DNA from: a virus
DNA length: 30,184 nucleotides
Reading direction: 5' to 3' (one strand)
IMG/VR virus record: IMGVR_UViG_3300021378_001833
Location: 1-30,184 of that record
The notes beneath the pieces are model-generated. The model was not told the DNA's origin and made no database searches. It saw only the letters and a program-made list of their open reading frames with translations. Both the position numbers and the translations under genes were made by a program. The stretch's first letter is position 1. Every line of letters begins with the position of its first letter. Of the stretch, positions 343-21,948 are shown piece after piece.

Positions 343-1167
343 GTGACTCCTGATAAAAAAGTATCTGTATTCTGTCTCTGGAGAGACTCTGAAAAAACAA
401 TCTCAAGAACTCTTAAACAACTAGAAGATCTGGAATCTTTAGTTGGATTCAGTTTTTCTTACTTCTTTTACGAAAACGACTCGAAGGACAATACAGTCGC
501 AGTTCTCGACGAATGGTTGTCCTCTAGATCTGGAGAGCTTAAATCAGAGAACCTAGATATGCAAAAGTTTGGGAGAACTACTGATCCCAAAAGAATGAAG
601 TTTTTGTGTAGATGTAGAAATGAAAGCAAAAAACTTGCTGGTTCGAATGATAGCGATTATTCTCTGTTGATAGATTCCGACATTAAGTTTAATAAAGAAA
701 ACTTTTCAAGGCAACTCGACACACTTGAGAACTGTGAGGATGCCGTTATGGTCACCGCCAATTCCAGGCAAAATATAGAAGACCTAACTTTTGGTTGTTG
801 TGCGGATTCATATTATGATGCTTACGCCTTCAAAGATAGACACGGCAACCAAGGGATGTATTGGTCTGACTGTCCATCTTATAAAAGCGATGACCAGTTT
901 AATTGGAAGCTTGGGAAACCAATAATTACGATGTCTTCTTTTGGGGGTCTTGCTGTTATAAAGTCAGATGTCTTTAATAAAGTTGAATGGAGCGCAGATA
1001 TTCATTGCGATCACGTTAACATGTGTTATGATATATCTAGATTTGGAAATATTTATGCAGACCCTAAAAGCAAGATATATGTAGAAGTTAATTTAGCTAA
1101 CTTAAATTTACAATCATTTGCTAATATGGCTAAATCTCAAAACGAAAATTACTACAAACATTTCTAA
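343..1167 (+). CDS. GT-A fold glycosyltransferase (CAP59/GT2-like)
   Basis: A 274-residue predicted glycosyltransferase of the nucleotide-sugar-dependent GT-A type. Visible marks are YENDSKDNT at residues 43-51, typical of the second strand of CAP59-type mannosyltransferases and GT2 enzymes, and an LLIDSD motif whose D111-x-D113 pair would hold the metal and nucleotide sugar. No membrane segment or signal peptide is seen, so it should act in the cytoplasm. The start is GTG: an ATG four bases earlier is in another frame and stops at once, and an in-frame TAA lies at 334-336. It leads a cassette of sugar genes and has its own promoter. Donor and acceptor are unknown; the GDP-mannose dehydratase downstream makes a GDP-hexose donor one possibility. 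Confidence 0.7.
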   Translation: MTPDKKVSVFCLWRDSEKTISRTLKQLEDLESLVGFSFSYFFYENDSKDNTVAVLDEWLSSRSGELKSENLDMQKFGRTTDPKRMKFLCRCRNESKKLAGSNDSDYSLLIDSDIKFNKENFSRQLDTLENCEDAVMVTANSRQNIEDLTFGCCADSYYDAYAFKDRHGNQGMYWSDCPSYKSDDQFNWKLGKPIITMSSFGGLAVIKSDVFNKVEWSADIHCDHVNMCYDISRFGNIYADPKSKIYVEVNLANLNLQSFANMAKSQNENYYKHF

Positions 1168-1168
1168 T

Positions 1169-1858
1169 ATGAAAACTTCAGAGTTATTTGACGAGATAAA
1201 AAAACAAAACAAAAAAAGCAAAGTACTGATACTGGGCTGTGGCCCGTCTTTGTCTGAAATTTCGCTAGATAAAGTAATAGACTTATCTGAAGACCACTTA
1301 ATAGCAACGATTAAACAATCCCACATACCTTTTGGTGATTATAGCGACTTTCAGTTTTTTAATTGCAACAATTTATTAAAATACCAAAGTAAAAAAACAA
1401 AATTTATATGCTGTTCTCCTAATAAACAAGACTGCGGACTTTGGGACAATCAAAATATAGACATTTTTTTTCATATGTCTCGACACCCCGAAAAAATGAT
1501 AAATGTTGAAAGCGATGATTATTTTTTTAAAAAAGATAATATGGGTAAATATTGGGGTCCAGGAATAATGACCGAAATTGTTTTGAGTTTTTTTTACAAT
1601 TTAGGAATAAAAGAAATAACAACTATTGGTTGGGATCTTTACAAAGGTTCCGATGACGGATATAAGCATTTTTATAAAGAATCAAATAGATCTTCATTTT
1701 TAAATCCAGCTGCACAAATGTATTCGGGAGAGATATCAGAATCTATATTAAATAGCAAAAGAATAAATGATTACTTTGCAAGTAAAAACGTTTCATTAAA
1801 ATGTTTAAAAAGCGATAGTTGTTTTTTGGACGATTCAATAGAAAGGGTGACATTATAA
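1169..1858 (+). CDS. GT42 sialyltransferase-like / DUF115-like protein
   Basis: 229 residues. The N-terminal VLILGCGPSLSEI (residues 19-31) is the nucleotide-binding start shared by DUF115 proteins of bacterial flagellin and surface-glycan clusters and by GT42 (Cst-type) sialyltransferases. A second conserved region is WGPGIMTE (129-136), then GIKEITTIGWDLY (146-158), close in layout to the GT42 segment ending in a G-x-D-F-Y-like motif. GT42 enzymes use CMP-activated nonulosonic acids, and the next gene encodes a CMP-ulosonate synthetase, so a transferase for that sugar is an attractive inference. ATG 1169 is preferred over upstream 1118 because it follows the preceding stop by one base. The gene is much more AT-rich than the dehydratase gene further on. 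DUF115 without transferase activity remains possible. Confidence 0.5.
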   Translation: MKTSELFDEIKKQNKKSKVLILGCGPSLSEISLDKVIDLSEDHLIATIKQSHIPFGDYSDFQFFNCNNLLKYQSKKTKFICCSPNKQDCGLWDNQNIDIFFHMSRHPEKMINVESDDYFFKKDNMGKYWGPGIMTEIVLSFFYNLGIKEITTIGWDLYKGSDDGYKHFYKESNRSSFLNPAAQMYSGEISESILNSKRINDYFASKNVSLKCLKSDSCFLDDSIERVTL

Positions 1859-3472
1859 ATGAAAATTTTAGATTGCACACTAAGAGATGGAGGATATCAT
1901 TGTAACTGGACTTTTGATAAAGATTTGGTTAATAATTTGATTGAATCGTTAAACAGTTATGTCAGCGTAATAGAACTTGGTTACAAATCCCGAAACAAAG
2001 AAAGAGGTCTTTGGGGGAGGTGTGATGACAATGAAGTAAACAAAGAACTAGAGAATTCATATGATAATCTGTGTTTTATGATAGACCTTAAAGAGTTCAA
2101 AAACAACACCAATGATCTTTCTATTGTAAGACCCTCTCACAGTTCTCCATTTTCCTATTGCCGTATAGCCATCAAGTATGAAGAATTAAGTTCTTTGAAA
2201 CCTGTATACGAATACTTAAAATCGATGGGTTATAAAATTTTTGTAAACTTAATGCAATCCTCTACTTTAGAAGAAAGCAAAATAAAAGATTTCCTAAATC
2301 ATATATCGGATTTTCATTTAGAGGGGGTTTATTTCGCGGATAGCTACGGTAACCTTGAATTCAAGACAATGTCTTCTATTTTAAAGGCAACCAAACAAAC
2401 AAAACACCTTCTCGGCTTTCATGGTCATGACAATTTTGGGCTTTCCTTTTCTAATTCCATATATTTAAATAATCTCGGGTATGAATATATAGACGGAACC
2501 ATACTGGGGATGGGAAGGGGTTGCGGAAACACAAGAACAGAACAGTTACTTCTTTATAAAAATAAAAACTTAACTAAAAAACAAATTAATATATTAGAAC
2601 CTTTTAGCAAACTCAAATATAAATATAACTGGGGTTTCTCTGTAAATCACATGATGTCCTCTTTAAGCGGTATGCACCCTACTGAAGCCCAAGAGATCTG
2701 CCGAAGTAACCTATCTGAGGATAAAAAATTCGAAAGCATAAAGAAGCTAAAGAAAAAAAAAGAAAAGGTTTCTGTTATCATACCCGCTAGATATGAATCT
2801 TCTAGATTCCCAGGGAAACCCTTAGCTAAATTATTTGGCAAAGAAATGATACTTTGGGTTTGTGAAAAAGCCTCACAGGCAGTTGGTGTTCAAAATGTTT
2901 ATGTGGCTTCTGACAGCGATGAAATATTTGAAGTAGTAAAAAAATCAGGTTATAAATACATAGAAACACCTTCCGATCTTGTAACAGGAACAGATAGAGT
3001 TGCTTATGCTTCTAAATTTGTAGATTCTGACATAATCATAAATATACAAGGAGACGAACCCCTTATAGAACCAGAAGATATCCTTAGGGTTATACAATCA
3101 AAAAAAGAGAATCCAGAAAAAATTATAAATTGTTATTCCAAGATTTCTAAGTCAGAATCGATTAACGATTTAAAGATACCGAAAATAGCTCTGAGTGACG
3201 ACCAAAATTTATTATATATAAGCAGAGGAGCTATTCCTTTTTCTAAATCAGGAGGCTCGGCTGTTTATAAGCAGGTGTGCATATATGGCTTTAACAAGAA
3301 AGATTTAAAAATATTTAATAATAAAAAAACAAAAACAGAAAAATTAGAAGATATAGAGATAATAAGATGTCTCGATAATAATATTATAGTAAAAATGGTC
3401 GAAACCTTTACTAAAGTAATTGCTGTTGATTACCCAGAGGATATAGATTTTATAGAAAATATGTTAAAATGA
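1859..3472 (+). CDS. fused DRE-TIM aldolase and CMP-KDO synthetase-like cytidylyltransferase
   Basis: A 537-residue two-domain enzyme. Residues about 1-285 are an HMGL-like (DRE-TIM) metallolyase: LDCTLRDGG (4-12) supplies R9 and metal ligand D10, HGHDN supplies H188 and H190, and GMGRGCGNT (217-225) is the glycine-rich family motif. After a lysine-rich linker (295-303), residues about 304-537 are KdsB-like: IPARYESSRFPGKPL (308-322), TGTDR (376-380), IQGDEP (396-401), IYGF (475-478) and VDYPED (523-528), so both metal aspartates are kept. KdsB enzymes join CTP to KDO or related 2-keto acids. The aldolase could supply that sugar by adding pyruvate to an aldose, so one polypeptide might make and activate a ulosonic acid. 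The coupled function is inference; the domain calls are firm. It starts directly after the preceding TAA and overlaps the HAD gene by four bases. Confidence 0.8.
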   Translation: MKILDCTLRDGGYHCNWTFDKDLVNNLIESLNSYVSVIELGYKSRNKERGLWGRCDDNEVNKELENSYDNLCFMIDLKEFKNNTNDLSIVRPSHSSPFSYCRIAIKYEELSSLKPVYEYLKSMGYKIFVNLMQSSTLEESKIKDFLNHISDFHLEGVYFADSYGNLEFKTMSSILKATKQTKHLLGFHGHDNFGLSFSNSIYLNNLGYEYIDGTILGMGRGCGNTRTEQLLLYKNKNLTKKQINILEPFSKLKYKYNWGFSVNHMMSSLSGMHPTEAQEICRSNLSEDKKFESIKKLKKKKEKVSVIIPARYESSRFPGKPLAKLFGKEMILWVCEKASQAVGVQNVYVASDSDEIFEVVKKSGYKYIETPSDLVTGTDRVAYASKFVDSDIIINIQGDEPLIEPEDILRVIQSKKENPEKIINCYSKISKSESINDLKIPKIALSDDQNLLYISRGAIPFSKSGGSAVYKQVCIYGFNKKDLKIFNNKKTKTEKLEDIEIIRCLDNNIIVKMVETFTKVIAVDYPEDIDFIENMLK

Positions 3473-3882
3473 AAAACAAAGACATAAAAAAATATAAAGA
3501 TTTACAGTCTTTTGAAAATTCAAACTCAGTGGCTATTGATTTTGATGGTGTAATACACAAAAACTCTAAAGGTTTTAATGATGGCACTATATATGATACA
3601 CCCGTAGAGGGAAGCTTAGAAGCCGTTAAAAAGATATTCAAAAAGGGTTATAAAATAGTAATTTTCACAGCAAAAGCTAAACCAGACAGGCCTCTGGTTA
3701 ACGGGTTAACAGGTGAGGAGCTTGTATGGGATTGGTTAAAAAAACATGATCTTAAAAAATACATTTCAGACGTTACCTGCGAAAAGCCTAGAGCTAAAAT
3801 TTATATAGACGATAAAGGGTATAGATTTCAAGATTGGAAAAATGCAATGTATTTTATTGAATCTATAGAAAATAACGTCTGA
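3469..3882 (+). CDS. small HAD-superfamily phosphatase
   Basis: 137 residues with the full set of HAD motifs: I is AIDFDGV (nucleophile D24 and acid/base D26), II is IFTAK (T67), III is K106 before PRAK, and IV is the D114-D115 pair in YIDDKGY. The protein is short, with no sizeable cap domain. The ATGA overlap with the aldolase/cytidylyltransferase gene implies translational coupling and a shared pathway. In KDO and sialic acid synthesis a HAD phosphatase (KdsC, NeuC-linked) removes phosphate from the ulosonic acid phosphate before CTP activation, and this protein may do the same. Many phage HAD proteins of this size are uncharacterised, so the substrate is inference. Confidence 0.75.
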   Translation: MKNKDIKKYKDLQSFENSNSVAIDFDGVIHKNSKGFNDGTIYDTPVEGSLEAVKKIFKKGYKIVIFTAKAKPDRPLVNGLTGEELVWDWLKKHDLKKYISDVTCEKPRAKIYIDDKGYRFQDWKNAMYFIESIENNV

Positions 3883-3893
3883 CTTTGTATTAT
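3866..3893 (+). promoter_or_regulatory. weak promoter candidate before the GTG start at 3900
   Basis: TATTAT at 3888-3893 lies six bases before the GTG at 3900. A poor -35 (TAGAAA, 3866-3871) sits 16 bases upstream of it. An overlapping TATACT at 3891-3896 is an alternative -10. It is listed because the spacing to the start codon matches the stronger promoters of this window. Confidence 0.3.
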
Positions 3894-3899
3894 ACTGTA

Positions 3900-4928
3900 G
3901 TGAAAAAAGTAATTATAACAGGGGTAACGGGTCAGGACGGAAGCTTAATGGCTGACTATTTATTAGCGAATACAGAACACACAATTATAGCAGGTGTTCG
4001 TCGTCTCAGTGTTAAGAATCACATTAACATAGAACACCTAAAATCAAATCCACGTTTCAAGCTGATCGACCTTGATGTTTCTGACCAGTCAAATGTGACT
4101 TCTGTTATCTCTGATGAAAAGCCAGACTATTTTATTAATTTTGCTGCCAATTCTTTTGTCGGGGCAAGCTGGACGATGCCAGTTAACCACATGGAGACCA
4201 ACTGCATGGCAGTTCTCTATCAACTTGAAGCTATTCGCAAACATTGCCCTAAATGCAAATACTACAACGCTGGCTCGTCTGAAGAGTTTGGTGACATTGT
4301 TACTGTCCCTCAAGACGAAACACACCCACTGCGCCCCAGAAGCCCTTACGGAGCATCTAAGGCCGCAGCGAGACACTTAGTAAAAGTATGGCGTGAAAGT
4401 TACAACCTGTATGCTGTTCAAGGATGGCTATTTAATCACGAAGGCATTCGTCGTGGAGAAGAATTCCTTACCCGCAAAGTAACCAAGGGTGTTGCTGAAA
4501 TTTTTGACAAAACAAGAAAAGGCAAAAAAATTAAACCACTACAACTAGGCAACCTTGATGCAAAAAGAGATTGGTCTGATGCGGAAGATTTTGTGGATGG
4601 AATTTGGAAAATGCTAAACCAAGAAGAACCAAAAGAATATGTCCTTGCTTCTGGACAAACTCATACTATTAGATCTTTTGTGGAGGCGGCTTTTTCTTAC
4701 GCTGGATTTGGCGCAGAAGAGTGTAGGTGGGTTGGAGAGGGAATTAACGAGAAGTATTTTCATGGTAATGATGTGTTGGTTGAGATAAACGTAAAATTTT
4801 ACAGGCCAGCAGAAGTAGAGCTCCTGTTGGGAGATCCTTCCAGAGCGGAGAAAGAGCTTGGATGGGTAAGGAAAACAGACTTTAACGGCTTAGTTAAAAA
4901 GATGGTTGACAAAGACATTGATCTTTGA
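3900..4928 (+). CDS. gmd: GDP-mannose 4,6-dehydratase
   Basis: 342 residues, the usual length for the family. An extended short-chain dehydrogenase that would convert GDP-mannose to GDP-4-keto-6-deoxymannose in the cytoplasm, the precursor of GDP-fucose, rhamnose and perosamine. Evidence: NADP-binding GVTGQDG (8-14), catalytic S126 and E128 in AGSSEEFG, Y150 and K154 in SPYGASK, and the family block GWLFNHEGIRRGEEFLTRK. Threonine of the usual S-T-S-E motif is replaced by serine, a conservative change. GTG 3900 gives the canonical MKKVIITG start; TTG 3885 would add five residues never seen in the family. It is noticeably richer in GC than the four genes before it, suggesting a different origin. 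Phages use this enzyme for glycan or LPS remodelling. No GDP-fucose synthase is seen here. Confidence 0.92.
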   Translation: MKKVIITGVTGQDGSLMADYLLANTEHTIIAGVRRLSVKNHINIEHLKSNPRFKLIDLDVSDQSNVTSVISDEKPDYFINFAANSFVGASWTMPVNHMETNCMAVLYQLEAIRKHCPKCKYYNAGSSEEFGDIVTVPQDETHPLRPRSPYGASKAAARHLVKVWRESYNLYAVQGWLFNHEGIRRGEEFLTRKVTKGVAEIFDKTRKGKKIKPLQLGNLDAKRDWSDAEDFVDGIWKMLNQEEPKEYVLASGQTHTIRSFVEAAFSYAGFGAEECRWVGEGINEKYFHGNDVLVEINVKFYRPAEVELLLGDPSRAEKELGWVRKTDFNGLVKKMVDKDIDL

Positions 4929-10741: not shown

Positions 10742-11455
10742 GTGATAAAACCTATTTTCAAATCGACCTACTCAGTAGGTAAAAGTATATTGACTATCGA
10801 TGAGATAGTTCAGATATGCAAAGACAAAGACTTCAAAAGTCTTACCTTGGTTGAAGACAACTTAACCAGCTTTATGAAGGCTTTTCATGCCTGTGTAAAA
10901 AACGGCATAGATCTAACATACGGTCTGAGGATTACTCTCTGTAACTCCATAGAATGTAAAGACTCAGATCACAAGTGCGTTATATTTGCTTTGGATGACA
11001 AAGGCTGCAAGCTAATGAATAAAATTTATTCTAAGGCGTTTGTTGATAACGGAGGTAAAATAACATACGAAGAGCTTCGGTCATTTTGGGATAATGATAG
11101 CCTTTCTTTTGTAGTCCCCTTTTACGATAGCTTTATTCATCAGAATAACTTGTTTTTAAAGAATTGTATACCAGAGCTTGAAGGTCTCAATCCTAGATTT
11201 TGGGTTGAGAAAAACAACCTTCCTTATGACAGACTTATTGAGCAGAAAGTTTTAGAGTTTACCGATGGTAATTTCCCTATTAGTTTCGTAAAGTCAATAT
11301 ATTATAAAAACAAAGAAGATGTCGAAGCTCTCCAAACTTACAAAATCCTCTGCAACCGAAGCTTCGGAAGACAAGCTACATTATCCTGTCCAAATTTAAA
11401 TCACTTCTCTAGTGATGAGTTTTGCTTAGAATCCTATATAGAAAAAACAAAGTAA
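10742..11455 (+). CDS. stand-alone PHP domain of DNA polymerase III alpha
   Basis: 237 residues that match the first part of DnaE. SVGKSILTIDEIVQICKD (residues 11-28) corresponds to the SLLDG...EL start of the PHP domain, SLTLVEDNLTSFMKAFHA to the ALTDHGNL segment, and the end (FGRQATLSC...SSDEFCLES) to the last PHP-to-palm region. The metal-binding H-x-H near the N-terminus is absent (FKSTY instead) and TDH has become VED, so the domain is probably catalytically dead and structural. The polymerase core is encoded two genes downstream, so this is a split subunit expected to assemble with it. GTG is the start, as an in-frame alternative nearby is lacking. Its stop overlaps the exonuclease ATG (TAATG). 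Confidence 0.72.
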   Translation: MIKPIFKSTYSVGKSILTIDEIVQICKDKDFKSLTLVEDNLTSFMKAFHACVKNGIDLTYGLRITLCNSIECKDSDHKCVIFALDDKGCKLMNKIYSKAFVDNGGKITYEELRSFWDNDSLSFVVPFYDSFIHQNNLFLKNCIPELEGLNPRFWVEKNNLPYDRLIEQKVLEFTDGNFPISFVKSIYYKNKEDVEALQTYKILCNRSFGRQATLSCPNLNHFSSDEFCLESYIEKTK

Positions 11456-12087
11456 TGAACGACGACCTACTAAGATATAATAGAAAACAAAAATACATTA
11501 TTTTTGACACAGAGACGGAAGGTTTGAATTTAGTGAAATCAAAACCTTGGCAAGCGGCTTGGATTGTTGCGGAAGGAAACAAGATAATTAAAAAATATGA
11601 CAAGCTAATCAAATGGGATGACCTGAGTGTTTCTAAAGATGCAGCAAGAATCACTGGTTTCAATAAGGCCGAGTATGAAAAGAAAGCTGAAGACCCTAAA
11701 AAGGTTTGGGATGAATTCTCTAAGTATTTATATGACGATTCCTATAAGATTGTGGGCCAAAACCTTTTGGGTTTCGATGTTTACATGATAGATGTATGGA
11801 GGAAGCTTATTGGAGAACCCCTGCATCAAGACTATATCAATAGAATCATTGACACTAAAGCGATAGCTACTGCCATTGTAAAAGAGTCACCAGTAAACAA
11901 AAAAGAATTTATATATTGGCAGTATAGGTGGCTTAACTATAGAGAAAGAGGTTTGAAGACTTCTCAATTAACACTTCTTAAAAAATATGAGATTGACTTT
12001 GACAAAGACAGACTGCATGATGCCTTATACGACATCGAAATGAATTTCGAAATATTCCACAAACAACTTTACGATATCGAACTATGA
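11455..12087 (+). CDS. DnaQ-like DEDDh 3'-5' exonuclease (proofreading)
   Basis: 210 residues. The DEDDh motifs are complete: FDTETEG with D18 and E20, GQNLLGFD with N103 and D108, and LHDALYDIE with H188 and D193. It would remove mismatched 3' nucleotides as the proofreading partner of the polymerase III core. ATG 11455 (TAATG junction) is chosen over upstream 11422, which would overlap the PHP gene by 34 bases. It lies between the PHP and polymerase-core genes and shares an ATGA overlap with the latter. A clamp-binding peptide is not evident. Confidence 0.85.
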   Translation: MNDDLLRYNRKQKYIIFDTETEGLNLVKSKPWQAAWIVAEGNKIIKKYDKLIKWDDLSVSKDAARITGFNKAEYEKKAEDPKKVWDEFSKYLYDDSYKIVGQNLLGFDVYMIDVWRKLIGEPLHQDYINRIIDTKAIATAIVKESPVNKKEFIYWQYRWLNYRERGLKTSQLTLLKKYEIDFDKDRLHDALYDIEMNFEIFHKQLYDIEL

Positions 12088-14627
12088 GATACAAGAATCC
12101 ATTCCCAGCAGGAGTTAAATTACCAGAGATTGTCGTTCAAGACGACACACTAGAATCACTAGGCCTCAAGCATGGTAGTTCTAGCTTGGAGATATTGAAG
12201 CAGTTATGCAGAAAAGGTCTTAGAGATAAGTCTTTAACTAAATCTGAAAACAAAAATGATTACTATGAGAGGGTTCAGATGGAAATTGATATTCTTGATG
12301 ATCTCGGCTTTGTGGACTACATACTTCTTAACTGGGACATTATGGACTACTGCAAAAGAAGCAAAATCCCTACTGGTGCTGGAAGGGGAAGTGCTGCTGG
12401 TAGTTTAGTTTTGTTTCTTCTCGGTGTAACTAATATTGACCCAATTAAATATGAACTATTTTTTGAAAGATTTGTCTCTAAAAGCAGAGCAAGGAAAATT
12501 GAGCATGAGGGGGAAGTGTTTCTTGACGGCTCTTTACTCGCTGATATTGATAACGATATTTCTTATGATCGCAGGGCTGAAGTTATTAAGTATATTGAAG
12601 ACAAGTACGAAGGAAGAACTTCCAAGATTTTAACTCTTAATACACTAAGCTCCAAGCTATGCATGAAAGAGTGCGGAAAGATAGTGGAAGAATTATCTGA
12701 AATGGATGTTAACCAGATTAGTGACACTATACCTAAGCATTTTGGCAAAGTCGCAAAATTAGATATTGCTTACGAGGAAAGCGAATCTTTTAAAAAGTTT
12801 GCCGATAAGCATGAGAGATGTTATAAAATAGCAAAAAAATTAGAAGGCTTAATTAAAAATACAGGAGTTCACCCTTCTGGAATTTCTATTAGTTATTACA
12901 ACCAAGAGGACATAATGCCCCTTCAAAAAACTAATGATGGAGCATTAGTATCTGGTTACGATATGGATGACGTTGCTAGCCTTAGCGTTAAGTTCGATAT
13001 ACTTGGACTGAGGACGCTTTCGGTTGTTAATGATACTTGTAACCAATTAGGCATTAAAGCCGCTGACATCGATCCTGGAGACAAAAGCATCTATGATGCG
13101 CTGTCATGCTTGAGGCAACCCAAAGGTTTGTTTCAGATTGAGGCTGAAACCAACTTTAAGGTGTGTAAACAAATAGCTCCAAAAAACCTTGAGGAGTTGT
13201 CTGCTGTAGTTGCTATTGCTCGTCCTGGAGCTTTAGACTTTAAAGACAGATATGCAGACTATGCAAGAACTGGAGAGTTCCAATCTGTCCATGAATTTTT
13301 TGACGACATACTCAGTTACACTGGTGGTATTCCTCTGTATCAAGAGCAGTTGATGAAAATGGCTGTTAAGGTAGGTTTTAGTCTCGATGAGTCGGAACAA
13401 CTCAGAAGGATTGTGGGCAAGAAAAAGGTGGAAGATATGCCAGCTTGGAAGGCTAAGATTGAGGACAAAATCAAGGAAAGAAACTTGGACCCAATAATAG
13501 GGGATGTTCTATGGAAGGTCGCAGAAGATTCAGCCAACTACTCCTTCAATAAGTCTCATAGTATCTCTTATGCTTATTTGGCGGCAATTACAATTTATTT
13601 AAAATTCAACCACCCACAAGAGTTTTTCCTTAGTTTGTTAAAGATGGCTAGGTTTGAGCCTAACTCTCACGAAGAGATAGCTAAAATATCGCAAGAGCTT
13701 TCCTTCTTTAACATTGAATTACTACCTCCAGATTTAAACCTGTCTGATTTTGACTTCAAAATCGATGATGAGAACATCAGATATGGACTAAATTCCATCA
13801 AGGGAGTTTCTGGCAAGGTTGTAGAGTCACTGATTGAATTCAGAGAGAACAAGTTCGAAAACAAATATGATATATTTATAGCAGCTAAAGATTGCGGCGT
13901 TAATATCGGTACCATGTCGGCTTTTGTTCAGGCTGGATTACTTGATTCTTTCGTGGTTACTGATCGTTGCAGATTAGTTCTCGAAGCTCAAACATTCAAC
14001 ATATTAACTGACAGAGAAAAAAGGAACATTATTGAAGTAGGAGAGCGTTTTGATTTCGATGTATTGAATACAATACAACACTTCAAAGAAAACGAGGCTC
14101 CTGCTGATGACGGAAGGGTATTATTCGCAGAAAGAAGGTTCAATACATTTAAGAAGAAATATACGCCCTATAAAAAAATATACGAACAAAATACAAGTCA
14201 TATAAAGTATGCTAACTGGCATTTCGAAGAGAAGCTTTTAGGTTACAGCTACTCACACAACATTAGAGATATCTTTAGCTCTGGAGATTCTGTTTCGTTT
14301 CATACTTCAGAGGACATAGCTAACTCTTCTGCCAGAAGAAGGATAAAGTTCGTAGGAACGGTCACAGACGTTATAAAAAGAACTAGCAGAAACGGTAATA
14401 AGTATGCGAGACTAGAAATGAAAGATGATGTAGGTTCCGTTTGTGGTTTATTTTTAGACTCAGACAGGAATGAAAGGTTGACAGAGTACATTAGTTCTGG
14501 TAAAAAGTTACCTAACAAGGGTGACGTCGCTATAATTACAGGCGATGTCGGAGAAGACATAGTGTTTGTTGATTCAATAAACACTGTGAAAGAAAAAATT
14601 TATATGAAATTATCTGAACTAAAATGA
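12084..14627 (+). CDS. dnaE: DNA polymerase III alpha catalytic core (DnaE without PHP)
   Basis: 847 residues corresponding to DnaE from just after the PHP domain. GAGRGSAAGS (98-107) is the palm P-loop-like motif. The catalytic aspartates are in DIDND (154-158) and VKFDILGLRTL (D305). IPLYQEQLMKMA, RRIVGKKK and YSFNKSHSISYAY are the fingers motifs, and LLPPDLN and YGLNSIKGV lie in the helix-hairpin-helix region. An OB fold occupies about 750-835 (FVGTVTDVIKRTSRNG). Compared with E. coli DnaE about 14 extra residues lie between FERF and the first aspartates. It lacks an obvious tau-binding tail. It synthesises the phage genome with the separate PHP and exonuclease proteins. No clamp or clamp loader is seen in the window, so host factors or genes outside may be used. 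Confidence 0.92.
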   Translation: MRYKNPFPAGVKLPEIVVQDDTLESLGLKHGSSSLEILKQLCRKGLRDKSLTKSENKNDYYERVQMEIDILDDLGFVDYILLNWDIMDYCKRSKIPTGAGRGSAAGSLVLFLLGVTNIDPIKYELFFERFVSKSRARKIEHEGEVFLDGSLLADIDNDISYDRRAEVIKYIEDKYEGRTSKILTLNTLSSKLCMKECGKIVEELSEMDVNQISDTIPKHFGKVAKLDIAYEESESFKKFADKHERCYKIAKKLEGLIKNTGVHPSGISISYYNQEDIMPLQKTNDGALVSGYDMDDVASLSVKFDILGLRTLSVVNDTCNQLGIKAADIDPGDKSIYDALSCLRQPKGLFQIEAETNFKVCKQIAPKNLEELSAVVAIARPGALDFKDRYADYARTGEFQSVHEFFDDILSYTGGIPLYQEQLMKMAVKVGFSLDESEQLRRIVGKKKVEDMPAWKAKIEDKIKERNLDPIIGDVLWKVAEDSANYSFNKSHSISYAYLAAITIYLKFNHPQEFFLSLLKMARFEPNSHEEIAKISQELSFFNIELLPPDLNLSDFDFKIDDENIRYGLNSIKGVSGKVVESLIEFRENKFENKYDIFIAAKDCGVNIGTMSAFVQAGLLDSFVVTDRCRLVLEAQTFNILTDREKRNIIEVGERFDFDVLNTIQHFKENEAPADDGRVLFAERRFNTFKKKYTPYKKIYEQNTSHIKYANWHFEEKLLGYSYSHNIRDIFSSGDSVSFHTSEDIANSSARRRIKFVGTVTDVIKRTSRNGNKYARLEMKDDVGSVCGLFLDSDRNERLTEYISSGKKLPNKGDVAIITGDVGEDIVFVDSINTVKEKIYMKLSELK

Positions 14628-17059
14628 GTGTATTTAATAACGTGATATTTAAAGACTTTAACCTAACACCGAGGGCTAAAAAAGCCTATAAAGATGCTTA
14701 TGATTTATCCAAAGAAATGGGGCATAATAATGTTAACAATCTGCACGTAGCTTACGGTTGCATTCAAAACATGTCATCATCTCTTAAAGACTTGATAGTC
14801 AGTGTAAACTTTCCATTAGGGACTGAGTTTATACATGAGAAAATAATTTCATGTGAAGACAACCCATCGTTAAGCGGTAAGTTTTATGCTAATAAAAATT
14901 CTGATCCTTGGCATAAGGAGGTTATTGAATCAATGAACTCTGCTAACAGTATATCTCAAAGTTTAGAACACCACTATGTGGGCATTGAGCATGTGCTTCT
15001 AGGAATATTGGAAACATCATATTATGTTTTTCCAGATCTGGGCTTGGAGGATTTCAAGGAAACACTTCATTCTTATGCAAAAGGAGATAAGGAAGACAGT
15101 CCAGATCCATTATCTTTGGATGATTTGTTGGCTGATTTTGGAGATCTAACGGGTTCTTTAGGAGATCCTCACGGAGATGAACCTGCAGAGCTTCCTAAGT
15201 TCTTAACAAGCCTAAACGACATGTATTGCGAAGGTTCTTTGCCAGATGTTTACGGAAGAGAAGATGAGATAAATCTTGTTGTCGAAACTATTCTAAAGAA
15301 GAACAAAAGCAACGCCATCTTAACTGGTGACGCTGGTGTTGGTAAGACGGCAATAGTTGAAGCATTGGCTACTAAAATTTGCAGGGCAGAAGTACCCTCT
15401 GGTCTTTTGGGGATGGAGATAATGAGTGTGGATTTGGGGGCAATGCTTTCTGGCACTCAGTATAGGGGGCAGTTTGAAGCTAAATTCCAAGATCTTTTGC
15501 AGATGGCTAAGGAAAACCCTCATATTATTTTGTTTTTTGATGAAATCCATACTATATTTGGAGCAGGTGGCAACCAAGAGGGCAGTATAGATGCTGCAAA
15601 CATGTTGAAACCAATGCTGGCTAGGGGTGAAATAAAATGTATCGGCTCTACTACTTCTGATGAATACGAAAAGATATTCAAGAAAGACTCAGCAATGAAA
15701 AGAAGGTTCTTTAATATAGAGGTGCAAGAACCTACTAAGGAAGACACCAAAAAAATACTTTATAATTGTAAGTCTAAATATGAAAAATATCACAACGTAA
15801 AATACAGCAAGTCTATTATTGATTGCGTGGTAGATTTGTCCGACAACTTAATCAGCAATAAAAACTTCCCAGATAAAGCTTTTGATGTCATTGATCAAGT
15901 TGGATCTAGGATCAAAATCAAGAATTCAAAGCCTTGCGAAGAGTTGGTCAACAGCCACAAAGACTTCGTGGACTTCCTGGCTTCAGGAGAAAGTTCTGCA
16001 GAAAAAGTAAAGGAAAAATTTAATTCTTTTCTGGCAAACCTAGACAAAGTTAATAAAAAAATATCAACTAAATCAATTACCGTTAACAAGGGCGATGTTT
16101 TAGAAGTTATATCAGAACACAGTAAAATTTCAGTAGACCAAATAAAAGAAAGTAGACAGGGTTTCTCTTCCTTTTTGGATAGGATGTCTAAGGAAGTTTT
16201 TGGCCAGCCTGATGTTTTAGAGAAGGTTAACGATTTACTCAGTTGTGTAAAGGCTGGGTTGGTAGACGACGACAAACCTTTGGCTAGTATGTTCTTTGTT
16301 GGCCCTACAAGTGTCGGTAAAACCTATACAGCTAAAAAGATAGCTAAGAATTTCTTTGGAAATGAAAAAGCTATGCTTCAAATCAACATGAGCGAGCTTT
16401 ATGATAAGACGGGAATCAGTAAACTTATTGGTTCTAATGCTGGCTACGTTGGTCACGAAGAAGGAGGGTTACTTACCAAATTTTTAAAGGATAATCCAAA
16501 TTGCGTTGTTCTTTTCGACGAGGTAGAAAAAGCCGACCCACAAGTTTTAAATTTATTGCTTCATCTACTTGATGAGGGTTACATAGAGGATAACAAACAC
16601 AATAAAATTGATTTCTCCAAATCAATAGTAATACTAACAAGCAACATAGGTCACGAAAAAGCGACTAAACCAAGCATGGGTTTCGTGCAAGACGAAGTCA
16701 ACAAAAAAGATTCCTACAAAAGCTCTGTAAAGAGCAAGCTAAAGCCAGAATTACTAGCTAGAATCAATGATGTTTTGGTTTTCGATGATCTTGGTGACTC
16801 AGACATCAAAAGAATCATAAAACATGAGCTTGATAAAGTAAAAGACAAACTAAACGAGAGAAACATAAGAATAATAGTGAAAAGCACTTCTGTAGATTGT
16901 ATTTTTAACGATATTAAAAGCAAAAAAATGCATGTAAGAGATGTGAAAAGGTATATCCGAGAAAAAGTTCAAGTACCTATTGCAAAACTGGTAGTCAAAA
17001 ACTCAAAAACATCAGAAATAATGCTAAAAAGTGTTGACAACAAACTAAGTATAGTCTAA
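14624..17059 (+). CDS. ClpA/ClpC-type two-ring AAA+ unfoldase
   Basis: 811 residues, full Clp/Hsp100 length. The N domain has two Clp repeats (LTPRAKKAY... at 15; HHYVGIEHVLLGIL at 116-129). D1 has Walker A GDAGVGKT (235-242), pore loop YRGQFE (280-285), Walker B FFDE (304-307) and Arg fingers R360-R361. D2 has Walker A GPTSVGKT (560-567), pore loop GYVG (607-610), Walker B LFDE (630-633), Arg finger in LLARIND (R713) and a modified sensor 2, VRDVKR (771-776). The middle region is too short for a ClpB coiled coil. MGF at 685-687 sits where ClpC has its VGF ClpP-docking loop, so it may deliver substrates to host ClpP. No ClpP gene is present here. Overlap with the polymerase gene is four bases. 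Its substrates are unknown. Confidence 0.9.
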   Translation: MSVFNNVIFKDFNLTPRAKKAYKDAYDLSKEMGHNNVNNLHVAYGCIQNMSSSLKDLIVSVNFPLGTEFIHEKIISCEDNPSLSGKFYANKNSDPWHKEVIESMNSANSISQSLEHHYVGIEHVLLGILETSYYVFPDLGLEDFKETLHSYAKGDKEDSPDPLSLDDLLADFGDLTGSLGDPHGDEPAELPKFLTSLNDMYCEGSLPDVYGREDEINLVVETILKKNKSNAILTGDAGVGKTAIVEALATKICRAEVPSGLLGMEIMSVDLGAMLSGTQYRGQFEAKFQDLLQMAKENPHIILFFDEIHTIFGAGGNQEGSIDAANMLKPMLARGEIKCIGSTTSDEYEKIFKKDSAMKRRFFNIEVQEPTKEDTKKILYNCKSKYEKYHNVKYSKSIIDCVVDLSDNLISNKNFPDKAFDVIDQVGSRIKIKNSKPCEELVNSHKDFVDFLASGESSAEKVKEKFNSFLANLDKVNKKISTKSITVNKGDVLEVISEHSKISVDQIKESRQGFSSFLDRMSKEVFGQPDVLEKVNDLLSCVKAGLVDDDKPLASMFFVGPTSVGKTYTAKKIAKNFFGNEKAMLQINMSELYDKTGISKLIGSNAGYVGHEEGGLLTKFLKDNPNCVVLFDEVEKADPQVLNLLLHLLDEGYIEDNKHNKIDFSKSIVILTSNIGHEKATKPSMGFVQDEVNKKDSYKSSVKSKLKPELLARINDVLVFDDLGDSDIKRIIKHELDKVKDKLNERNIRIIVKSTSVDCIFNDIKSKKMHVRDVKRYIREKVQVPIAKLVVKNSKTSEIMLKSVDNKLSIV

Positions 17060-18468: not shown

Positions 18469-18930
18469 ATGATTCAATTTTACAAACCAAATTCCAAAAA
18501 CACAGGGAACGCCTTCGGCTTCCGCTTAGGCATCCAAGGGAAGAGCGAGACCCCTTGTTTATATATGACCGCAATCAAGCAGCATTCCTGGAATAGCAAC
18601 AAGAGAAGTGGCTCTTTCGCAGAGAACGCTAAAAACCCAGAGAAGTGCGCCTCTGTTAAATTCAACGAAAGCGAATTGGGCGGCTTTATTTATGCTATAG
18701 AAAACTACGATAAGTTTAATGCGTTTCATAGTTTTGACGACAATAAAACCTCTATATCATTAAGTCCTTATACTAAAAATGATGGCACAAAGGCTTTCTC
18801 TTTTTCTGTGGCTAGGAACTCCGCTAATAAGTTTGGTATCGGTTTAGAGATGTCTGAAGCTTACCTGCTTGCTGAATATTTTAAATTTGTGTTAAAAGAA
18901 ATATTTACCTACAAAACAAACAATAAGTAA
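18469..18930 (+). CDS. candidate single-stranded DNA-binding protein (PC4/Whirly-like)
   Basis: 153 residues. It begins MIQFYKPNSKNTGNAF and has alternating beta strands with aromatic and basic residues (GFRLGIQGK, LYMTAIKQHSW, SVKFNESELGGFIYAI, ISLSPYTK, FSFSVAR), ending in a long helix (residues about 128-148). This strands-then-helix pattern and the KPN...GSF..NA.NP wording recall small phage proteins with a PC4/Whirly-like ssDNA-binding fold. The assignment is from memory of the pattern, without a diagnostic motif. A phage with its own polymerase, helicase and recombinase would be expected to encode an SSB and none other is seen here. It ends at a TAATG junction with the next gene. Confidence 0.4.
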   Translation: MIQFYKPNSKNTGNAFGFRLGIQGKSETPCLYMTAIKQHSWNSNKRSGSFAENAKNPEKCASVKFNESELGGFIYAIENYDKFNAFHSFDDNKTSISLSPYTKNDGTKAFSFSVARNSANKFGIGLEMSEAYLLAEYFKFVLKEIFTYKTNNK

Positions 18931-20786
18931 TGAGAAAGAAAACCGTACTCATACATTCCAATTTCTGCAAAGCATTCACTGGTTTTGGGAAAAACCAAAA
19001 GAATGTTCTAAAGTATTTATATAAAACAAATAAATACAAAGTAGTAGAAGCAGCAAACATGAAGATATCTGGAGATCCGTCTCTAGAGACTCTTCCTTGG
19101 GATTGTTATGGAGCTGTATCTAAAGATCACCAGTCTAAGTCCGAGGAAGACAGGAGGTCTGATGGGTATGGTTTTTTCGAAATAGACAATATTGTAGAGA
19201 AAGTAAGGCCTGACGTATATATAGGTTCAGAAGACATATGGGCTTTCACAAACTATCACAACAAACCTTGGTGGAACAAAGTTAACTGCATGGTATGGAC
19301 TACCTTAGACAGTCTTCCGCTTCTTCCTCAAGCCGTGGAGTACGCCCCTAAAATAAAAAACTATTTTGTGTGGTCTTCTTTCGCTGAAAAAGCTTTTAAG
19401 AAAATAGGCTACGACCACGTAAAAACTTTGCGTGGCTCTTTGGATGTGGAAAACTTTAACAGACTAAGTGATGACGAAAGAAAAAAGCTAAGAGACTTTC
19501 ATGGCGTAGATGAAAATGATTTTGTTGTTGGCTTTGTTTTTCGTAATCAATTAAGAAAGTCCGTACCCAACCTACTAGACGGATTCAAGCTTTTTAAAGA
19601 AGAAAAAAAGAATGCTAAATTACTTCTTCACACTCACTGGTCAGAGGGATGGGATATAATGAGGTTGCTGGAAGAGAAGGAAATTGACAGGGAGGATATT
19701 TTAACCACCTACTTCTGCTCCTCTTGTAATTCTTATCATGTCAGAAGCTACACTGGTCAAAATCAAAAATGTAGAGATTGCGGGTCAGAGACTCTTAACA
19801 CAGCTAATGTAAGCGCGGGTGTTTCCGAGGACCAGTTAAACCAAGTTTATAATCTTATGGATGTTTATTGTCACCCGTTCACTAGTGGTGGTCAGGAAAT
19901 ACCAGTGCAAGAAGCCAAGCTGACAGAGCTTATTACTTTGGTAACAGATTACTCTTGTGGCGAAGATAGCTGCTCAGAAGAGAGCGGAGGCTTGCCTCTT
20001 AGCTGGCATGAATACAGAGAACCAGGTACCCAGTTCATCAAAGCTTCTACAGACGCTGAGAGCATCAAGCAAATGCTAAATACGGTCTTTGATATGTCTG
20101 AGGAAGAAAGATCAAGCACAGGTAAGAAGGCTAGGTCTTGGGTTATGGAAAACTTCTCCATAGAGGTTATAGGTAAAAAGCTAGAATCCATTATAGATGC
20201 AATGCCTTATCTAGATGAAGACTTGGATATAAAAAACGCTTCTTACAATGATCTTTACGAAAAACCTGAGGGGTTAGACAACAAGGACTTTATAATAAAC
20301 TTGTATGAAAACGTGCTTAATGATTATGTAGACGAAAGAACTGATGGTTTTAAACACTGGTTCCAAAAATTAGAGTCTGGCGAGCTTGATCAAAATTCTA
20401 TATATCATCATTTTATAGACATAGCAAAAAAAGAAAATCTAAAGAAGCCTGTAGTGTTTGATGATTTGATGTCTGACGATGACAAAGGAAACCGTATCGC
20501 TGTCGTTATTCCTGAGTCTGGCACAGATGTTCTGTTGATTAACTCCCTTCTTAAAAACCTACAGAGAAAACATAAAGGATCAAATATTTATATATTCACC
20601 AAGCCTGAGTTTTTCGAATACATAGAAGACAATCCTTGTGTCCATAAATGTATCCCATATTCAAGTGGTTTAGATAATCCTATTTCCCTTGAAGGTTTCG
20701 GTAATCACGAAGGTTTCTTTGAAGCCGCCTACTACCCAGCTACTACGACGCAGAAGGTCCCTTGTTACATACATAACGGAAAATAA
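18930..20786 (+). CDS. multidomain glycosyltransferase: GT-B with zinc ribbon, DUF4214-like, N-half of GT9
   Basis: 618 residues. About 1-425 form a GT4-like GT-B transferase (SNFCKAFTGFGKN at the N-lobe, SGGQEIPVQEAK at 319-330 with conserved E329). Inserted in the C-lobe is a zinc ribbon: C263, C266, C281 and C284 (CSSC, CRDC). About 453-500 (INLYENVLNDYVDER, FKHWFQKLESG) resembles DUF4214, a helical domain common in surface-glycan proteins. From about 520 (RIAVVIPESGTDVLLINSLL) it resembles the N-terminal lobe of a GT9 heptosyltransferase, which ends with the protein; the matching C-lobe starts the next gene two bases on. It probably builds or modifies a phage or host surface glycan in the cytoplasm. 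Donors are unknown. Confidence 0.72.
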   Translation: MRKKTVLIHSNFCKAFTGFGKNQKNVLKYLYKTNKYKVVEAANMKISGDPSLETLPWDCYGAVSKDHQSKSEEDRRSDGYGFFEIDNIVEKVRPDVYIGSEDIWAFTNYHNKPWWNKVNCMVWTTLDSLPLLPQAVEYAPKIKNYFVWSSFAEKAFKKIGYDHVKTLRGSLDVENFNRLSDDERKKLRDFHGVDENDFVVGFVFRNQLRKSVPNLLDGFKLFKEEKKNAKLLLHTHWSEGWDIMRLLEEKEIDREDILTTYFCSSCNSYHVRSYTGQNQKCRDCGSETLNTANVSAGVSEDQLNQVYNLMDVYCHPFTSGGQEIPVQEAKLTELITLVTDYSCGEDSCSEESGGLPLSWHEYREPGTQFIKASTDAESIKQMLNTVFDMSEEERSSTGKKARSWVMENFSIEVIGKKLESIIDAMPYLDEDLDIKNASYNDLYEKPEGLDNKDFIINLYENVLNDYVDERTDGFKHWFQKLESGELDQNSIYHHFIDIAKKENLKKPVVFDDLMSDDDKGNRIAVVIPESGTDVLLINSLLKNLQRKHKGSNIYIFTKPEFFEYIEDNPCVHKCIPYSSGLDNPISLEGFGNHEGFFEAAYYPATTTQKVPCYIHNGK

Positions 20787-20787
20787 T

Positions 20788-21948
20788 ATGCCACATTTAC
20801 TTAAAGAATACTCAAAAAATTTAGAAGTCGACCCTAAGAAACCTGTGGTCAACAAGCACTTCTACCCAGTTACTCCAGAAAAATATATAGTTTTATATAA
20901 CGAACAAAATGTTAATTCAAAAAACTACAGATACTTTTCTTTAGTTCTTGATCTGATCAAGCATGAACTCCAAAGCGAGAATACTAGTGTGGTCATTATC
21001 GGTTCTGGTAAAAATTTAACTAACAGAGCGGATTATATTTACCCAAATTTAAGTTTCAGGAAGAACTGCTACATTGTCTCCAAGGCTGATTTATTTATAT
21101 CGATAGATAATGCATTGACTCAGTACGCGAGCAGTCAAAGTGTTCCTATAGTAAATTTATATGGAAATATATACCCCTCAATAACAACTCCTTACTGGTC
21201 TAATAAAAACAATAAAATTGATTTGGCTCCAGAGTGGAGTACAAAACCCTGTTTAGGCCTGGAAGATCCAGACGATTCCATAAATAAAATACCAGCTGAG
21301 AAGATTGCTGAGTCGATAATTAAAATTTTAAAGCCGAACAAAAAATCGATTATAAACTTCAAAACGAAAGTTACGAATAAAATCAAAGATTTTGCAATAG
21401 ATGTAATACCAACAGATTACAAGAACATTTCCATTTTTAAAGATTCATTAATAAACCTCAGACTTGACAGGGGTAAAGTAGACGATGAAGCCTTTTATAA
21501 GTATTGTTCTAATCATATGTGCGACATTACTATTGAAGATAAGATTTTACAACCTCAGATCGCTGAGAATTTTGCAAAAAACATAAACTGCATACATTTA
21601 ATTTTAAATGATGAAATAGATAACATACCTAAAAAATATTTCGAACTCTTAAAGAGATTAAAAATTAAACTAAAGATACTAGTTAAGAACAAAGAGATAC
21701 TTGACGATGTTAGGTTCGACTATTTCGATCAAGATGTTGAATTTTATGACCCACCGTCAAAAAAACCTGACCTCGTAGACCTTGGTGACAAGTTTTTCTC
21801 TTTTAAATTCGTTGTGGAGGCTGACAAAATATACAAATGCACTCATTTTTGGAAGAATAATATTGACTCTGATGATAATATAGTGGATAATGCTGATTAC
21901 TGGGAAGAATCAGATTACTTTTATATTTATGAACAAGAAAGACAATAA
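20788..21948 (+). CDS. GT9 heptosyltransferase-like C-lobe plus unknown C-terminal domain
   Basis: 386 residues from ATG 20788, one base after the TAA of the preceding gene (TAATATG); upstream 20689 is in the wrong frame for the GT9 homology and overlaps it. YIVLYNEQNV (33-42), VVIIGSG (68-74) and SKADLFISIDNALTQYASSQSVPIVNLYGN (98-127) match the donor-binding lobe of GT9 heptosyltransferases. The GT9 N-lobe is at the end of the preceding protein, so the two halves must pair or be fused by frameshifting. The remaining about 200 residues are AT-rich, lysine- and aspartate-rich, and end in an aromatic acidic segment (NADYWEESDYFYIY). I do not recognise them. The end overlaps the next gene by 20 bases. 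Confidence 0.6.
   Translation: MPHLLKEYSKNLEVDPKKPVVNKHFYPVTPEKYIVLYNEQNVNSKNYRYFSLVLDLIKHELQSENTSVVIIGSGKNLTNRADYIYPNLSFRKNCYIVSKADLFISIDNALTQYASSQSVPIVNLYGNIYPSITTPYWSNKNNKIDLAPEWSTKPCLGLEDPDDSINKIPAEKIAESIIKILKPNKKSIINFKTKVTNKIKDFAIDVIPTDYKNISIFKDSLINLRLDRGKVDDEAFYKYCSNHMCDITIEDKILQPQIAENFAKNINCIHLILNDEIDNIPKKYFELLKRLKIKLKILVKNKEILDDVRFDYFDQDVEFYDPPSKKPDLVDLGDKFFSFKFVVEADKIYKCTHFWKNNIDSDDNIVDNADYWEESDYFYIYEQERQ

Follow-up and report, generated by a model that had tools for sequence, protein, structure and literature searches.

The closest described systems to the locus analysed here are the KdsA–KdsC–KdsB pathway for KDO and the NeuB–NeuA pathways for nonulosonic acids, the latter likewise leading to CMP-activated 3-deoxy-ulosonates. 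NeuB and KdsA enzymes use PEP. Enzymes of the 4-hydroxy-2-oxovalerate aldolase (HOA) type reversibly split 4-hydroxy-2-keto acids into pyruvate and aldehydes, and such a reaction with a polyhydroxy aldehyde would give a 3-deoxy-2-ulosonate, the class of compound that is activated by KdsB-type enzymes. The nearest solved relative of the aldolase described below is the N-terminal domain of BVU_2661 (3dxi), deposited only as a putative aldolase, and we know of no activity for any member of this aldolase family. A description of the fusion or of the related operon was not found in the open-access literature, a coverage that takes in few subscription journals.

The DNA analysed (the window) was a virus record of 30,184 bases, complete as a record and perhaps only part of a genome, containing phage genes for tail, DnaB helicase, primase and DNA polymerase III. 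The features of the fusion locus are given in table 1. Residues 2–243 of the fusion matched Pfam HMGL-like (PF00682, E 1.6e-16) and residues 306–503 matched CTP_transf_3 (E 2.5e-43); the best PDB sequence matches were 3dxi for the aldolase part (7e-37) and the KdsB/KpsU structures 1gq9 and 2y6p for the cytidylyltransferase part (1e-34 to 1e-35). An AlphaFold model of the fusion (mean pLDDT 87; pTM 0.56, which makes the relative domain placement unreliable) matched KdsB at TMt 0.87–0.92 and 3dxi at TMt 0.84. Together with the surrounding phage genes, these matches bore out the first-pass annotation of an aldolase joined to a KdsB-like synthetase in one phage-borne ORF. Most other phage fusions have a longer linker in the alignment. 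DNA polymerase III alpha appeared to be split in the window into overlapping PHP (10742–11455), RNase_T-type exonuclease (11422–12087) and polymerase core (12084–14627) ORFs, directly followed by an 811-aa ClpA/B-type AAA+ ATPase (14624–17059).

Table 1. Fusion gene, its domains and neighbouring genes in the window.
Feature	Position	Strand	Remarks
Possible GT2-like glycosyltransferase	343..1167	+	weak match, below cut-off
MptE/DUF115-like Rossmann protein (GCGPSL)	1169..1858	+	candidate CMP-ulosonate transferase; abuts fusion start at 1859
Aldolase–cytidylyltransferase fusion ORF	1859-3472	+	537 aa, ATG start, single frame
Aldolase domain, residues 1-284	1859..2710	+	HMGL-like/DRE-TIM barrel, BVU_2661 (3dxi) type
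Lys-rich linker, residues 285-302	2711..2764	+	from translation and alignment
KdsB-like cytidylyltransferase domain, residues 303-537	2765..3469	+	from Pfam, structure and motifs
Small HAD-family hydrolase, probable phosphatase	3469..3882	+	ATG overlaps fusion TGA (ATGA)
SDR, GDP-mannose 4,6-dehydratase type	3885..4928	+	below Gmd equivalog cut-off

Relatives were sought in IMG/VR by an alignment-based scan, which returned 60; a single-sequence scan of viral records returned none. Viral contigs with both domains in one ORF numbered 37 besides the window and fell into 19 groups at 90% identity; the HMGL-like plus KdsB-like architecture is thus shared by phages other than this one. Among 50,697 records of named phage genomes no fusion was found, and nine matched one half only. 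Aldolase and KdsB were encoded as adjacent or overlapping ORFs in seven contigs (L044, L045, L048, L049, L050, L052 and L053), and in L040 the two parts were separated by frame changes. A tree built on the cytidylyltransferase sequences joined 25 phage fusions, that of the window included, with L067 and L040 in a 27-row clade (SH-aLRT 95), nested in a 70-row group (97) holding most of the unfused bacterial enzymes listed. This topology suggests a single fusion event in phages, with some doubt left by a quick tree and some long branches. L067 (CACCYT010000029.1) is a 4.2-kb contig from the genome of a single Bacteroidetes cell; it has a fusion of the phage type, groups among the phage sequences and possibly derives from a phage infecting the sorted cell.

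The PF00682 match and an RD...HxH metal site place the aldolase domain among the DRE-TIM metallolyases (HMGL-like). The metal ligands D10, H188 and H190, intact in the window as first noted, were invariant in 37 phage fusions, four bacterial or single-cell fusions and the 66 unfused bacterial aldolases listed; R9, E39, R102, R220 and N224 were likewise invariant in the fusions and the bacterial cassette aldolases, and N192 was invariant except in some stand-alone phage aldolases. H14, beside Y13 in the window copy, was unconserved. BVU_2661 (30% identity by structural alignment) shares LRDGGYY..W and GMGRG.GN with the phage aldolase; it was solved as a lone N-terminal domain, whereas the phage protein has KdsB at the C-terminus. 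HOA aldolases (DmpG/BphI type; 1nvm, 4jn6, 4lrs) have in common with the phage domain the DRE-TIM barrel, R9/D10/H188/H190/N192 and the G.G.GN loop, but three positions set the family apart from them, namely Y13, W17 and R220, which in HOA are His, His and Ala, and no acylating aldehyde dehydrogenase partner was identified beside the phage fusion. The aldolase domain also fell short of the HOA equivalog cut-off (TIGR03217, 68 bits versus 286). The position of Y13 is occupied by Tyr in 37/37 phage fusions and in 64/66 of the bacterial aldolases listed, and by His in 4jn6 and 4lrs; in HOA aldolases the His at this site, the third residue past the metal Asp, is the catalytic base. Because this His is replaced, the condensation of pyruvate put forward at first was not borne out as stated, and we infer it only as the probable type of reaction. 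The invariant R220 would fit an anionic or phosphorylated substrate and, taken with the HAD partner, suggests a phosphorylated acceptor.

In the cytidylyltransferase domain, D399 and D524 were aligned with the metal ligands D95 and D219 of Aquifex KdsB, and R311, R316 and K320 with its CTP-loop residues R10, R15 and K19 (PMC3149649). The motifs around these residues, QGDEP (D399), AVDYPED (D524) and K320, agreed with the earlier reading of intact KdsB-like motifs, and equivalents of Arg157, Gln98, Tyr185 and Glu210 of KdsB/KpsU are kept as well. Two further motifs had diverged, to KQVCIY (Q472) and DIEIIR (I501) in the window: KHxGIY and LEQLR of canonical KdsB were replaced by KQVCIY and DIEIxR in 41/41 fusion copies readable there. 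The positions of H181 and Q211 of E. coli KdsB, which we take to contact KDO (the numbering fits the sequence), were thus Gln and Ile in every readable fusion copy. Enzymes with this pair are called Q/I type below. At the same positions the adjacent unfused enzymes had Gln in 54/58 and Ile, Leu or Val in 55/58 of the loci listed, and the KDO-type enzymes 1gq9, 2y6p and those of the KdsA-carrying phages L004 and L005 keep His and Gln. The window domain missed the kdsB equivalog cut-off (TIGR00466, 131 bits versus 155) and passed that of the broader subfamily model NF003952, 3-deoxy-manno-octulosonate cytidylyltransferase (226 versus 193). The Q/I enzyme of Proteocatella exceeds the kdsB cut-off (160 bits), and the automatic kdsB name is therefore undiagnostic. 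Judged by these motifs, the fusion cytidylyltransferase is a subfamily distinct from canonical KdsB. Identity with a phosphonate cytidylyltransferase, considered on account of PMC6697681, was dropped, the domain being clearly KdsB-like.

Related HAD genes were found near the fusion in 14 of the 19 non-redundant groups and also near 7/15 aldolase-only phage loci, so that HAD genes do not mark the fusion specifically; phage HADs and those of the bacterial cassettes belong to different subfamilies. MptE-like relatives were near the fusion in 14/19 groups and near 0/15 aldolase-only phage loci. The MptE-like ORF as listed starts at TTG 1118, with ATG 1169 as the likely start, and its end at 1858 directly before the fusion start, together with the HAD overlap, suggests co-translation. 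Its PF01973 match was below cut-off. GT29 sialyltransferase-like genes were near the fusion in 3/19 groups and NeuB in 2/19; NeuB was not found in the window, which sets the locus apart from the NeuB–NeuA pathways. The SDR gene provides a sugar-nucleotide context, its tie to the fusion being uncertain. The phages L033/L034 (5992–9887) have NeuB and another cytidylyltransferase in addition to the fusion, and a single phage may thus possess two sources of CMP-sugar acids. The window has a second sugar-related block at 18930–21948, where two glycosyltransferase-like ORFs overlap (Glycos_transf_1 with DUF4214; GT9-like).

A scan of GTDB genomes yielded at least 80 bacterial-type loci, in a sample leaning to close relatives. 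These loci commonly combine an aldolase (about 530–545 aa), a KdsB-like enzyme (about 245 aa) and a HAD hydrolase (about 219 aa), and members of the HAD cluster occurred in at least 38 bacterial loci. Among the hosts were Gammaproteobacteria, Pelagibacteraceae, Bacteroidota, Bacillota, Verrucomicrobiota and others, and also a Micrarchaeota MAG. The additional domain carried by bacterial aldolases is MptE-like (weak Pfam hits) and matched the phage MptE-like family with an hhalign probability of 95–97% (E 2e-8 local, 1.5e-10 global), the layouts thus being MptE-like, aldolase–KdsB and HAD in phages and aldolase–MptE-like, KdsB and HAD in bacteria. Close homology of the two MptE-like parts had been considered, but by the local E value the relationship is only distant, and the invariant His of the phage family was not evident in the bacterial domain. 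A role of this C-terminal domain as the phosphatase was rejected because it is MptE-like; the phosphatase is encoded by a gene of its own next to KdsB. Longer fusions of aldolase, middle domain and KdsB (767–787 aa) were present in L109, L138 and L143 among the loci listed, and arose independently of the phage fusion. In some of the bacterial cassettes (L105, L108, L117, L123 and L141) KdsB was replaced by a NeuA-like enzyme, a further likeness to the NeuB–NeuA pathways, and L117 and L118 had the aldolase without a Q/I-type KdsB and with a NeuA-like enzyme alongside. An order-wide search around an Idiomarina genome found a similar aldolase in 3/149 genomes, the query genome included; such patchiness within one order is as expected of a variable surface-sugar locus.

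KDO enzymes were sought in genomes with the aldolase. In whole-genome searches, a true KdsA over cut-off was present in 9/9 Gram-negative genomes. The KdsB search covered 11 genomes, nine of which had the Q/I type by motif reading: the Gram-negatives Saccharospirillum (L158), Nitrincola (L159), Oceanobacter (L160), Alteromonas (L161), Pseudomonas BMS12 (L162), Gelidibacter (L163) and Idiomarina seosinensis (L164), and the Gram-positives Rossellomorea (L157) and Proteocatella (L156). All seven Gram-negatives had, in addition to the Q/I type, a separate KdsB over the family cut-off, with the canonical HxG/LEQLR motif in six and an unreadable pattern in Gelidibacter (L155). Pseudomonas flexibilis and Idiomarina aquatica had the aldolase, a canonical KdsB and a NeuA-like enzyme in the cassette, and the Q/I type was not found in either by KdsB search and motif reading. 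KdsA over cut-off was found neither in Rossellomorea nor in Proteocatella, which have the cassette, and in 0/20 fusion-phage records, many of them fragments. An unannotated 462-kb phage record, L004 (LR756500.1 125143–135805), has consecutive genes that resemble, as judged by eye, KdsA, KdsB and a KdsD-like isomerase with a SIS domain, apparently a complete KDO supply set.

These data bear directly on whether the locus could be a KdsA-independent route to KDO, in which the aldolase would join pyruvate and arabinose 5-phosphate and the KdsB domain would make ordinary CMP-KDO. KdsB is the nearest known family, the NF003952 name is passed and some phages have genuine KDO genes (L004, L005), but the two pocket residues differ from the KDO type in all readable fusions, the aldolase-bearing Gram-negatives have their own KdsA and, in the seven with the Q/I paralogue, their own KdsB, and Gram-positive cassettes occur without KdsA; we regard this route as improbable. 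The altered pocket, the coexisting KdsA and KdsB, and the Gram-positives and fusion-phage records without KdsA indicate that the product is probably other than KDO. The idea of a new sugar raised by the first-pass annotation was accordingly upheld in part: the pocket argues for a non-KDO sugar, as does the lack of KdsA over cut-off in the 20 fusion-phage records, and the sugar may be a new one. Less readily set aside, though still unlikely, is an aldolase that does not handle pyruvate, carrying out another DRE-TIM reaction such as acyl-CoA condensation or cleavage, with the cytidylyltransferase activating a different acidic substrate. The loss of the His base gives real reason for doubting a pyruvate aldolase, as does an HpcH/HpaI aldolase gene between the HMGL-like aldolase and the NeuA-like cytidylyltransferase in L118 (8609–9358, assigned by Pfam) and L128 (8642–9379, same cluster), where the HMGL-like gene may have another role; W17 and R220 also differ from HOA, and weak profile matches of the aldolase domain reach citramalate and homocitrate synthases. 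Against this, 4-hydroxy-2-oxovalerate aldolases, the nearest relatives with a characterised function, act on pyruvate, and the tight link to KdsB-like and NeuA-like CMP-ulosonate synthetases demands an upstream maker of a 2-keto sugar acid.

The role of the MptE-like neighbour was weighed in the same way. Its model (pLDDT 74) gave archaeal HPPK/MptE (8sd5) as the first Foldseek match (4e-4) and sialyltransferase at 0.014, with all TM-scores around or below 0.5; the fold list included thiamin pyrophosphokinases as well as the CMP-binding sialyltransferases 5bo9, 6apl and 4js1. A (pyro)phosphokinase, for example one preparing a phosphorylated acceptor, would suit the top match and the distantly related domain fused to the aldolase in bacteria. 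The sialyltransferases in the same list speak against it. The moderate confidence of the model and query TM-scores below 0.5 limit both readings; a kinase role was considered the less probable choice, and a CMP-ulosonate transferase is the preferred, tentative assignment. Almost no weight was given to chance read-through, an assembly artefact or a decayed gene. The separated parts of L040 could be read in this way, but the same fusion in 37 other contigs argues that it is no assembly accident, and the active sites are invariant and the sequences form one supported clade.

The reading preferred here, to which we assign a probability of roughly 0.55, is that the fusion carries out both condensation and activation in a small surface-sugar pathway that parallels KdsA–KdsC–KdsB and probably leads to a sugar other than KDO. 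The common logic would be to condense, dephosphorylate and activate with CTP; the differences from the KDO pathway are a first enzyme from another family, a changed pocket and fusion-phage records in which KdsA was not found. The aldolase domain, with a divalent metal on D10/H188/H190, would condense pyruvate, the inferred donor, with a common aldose, probably phosphorylated, to a 3-deoxy-2-ulosonate (phosphate); the product of the overlapping HAD gene would strip the phosphate from it; the KdsB-like domain would convert CTP and the ulosonate into CMP-ulosonate; and the MptE/sialyltransferase-like protein, or another glycosyltransferase of the locus, may move the ulosonate to a glycan of the phage or of the host surface. 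The fusion had first been taken for a shortcut, a view that found no support as stated, as bacteria encode aldolase, HAD phosphatase and cytidylyltransferase each in a gene of its own and a HAD gene is still present in the window; since that gene overlaps the fusion, a KdsC-like dephosphorylation is probably retained. The phage fusion is the joined form of a patchily distributed bacterial surface-sugar operon.

The automatic names KdsB and 4-hydroxy-2-oxovalerate aldolase both look wrong for the fusion family. The kinds involved, KdsB, HOA and the pathways to KDO and nonulosonates, are known ones, and what is new is the combination, with altered specificity residues. The wider proposal, to which we give somewhat less than an even chance, is an additional route to CMP-ulosonates that begins with a DRE-TIM pyruvate aldolase in place of KdsA or NeuB, has spread through bacteria in the form of an accessory operon, was acquired by phages as one bifunctional enzyme, and yields an undescribed CMP-sugar. 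If true, an uncharacterised acidic sugar would be made by many bacteria, Gram-positives included, and by phages, the bifunctional enzyme would be a compact tool for CMP-sugar production, and phages would carry the supply line of a special sugar, beyond glycosyltransferases alone.
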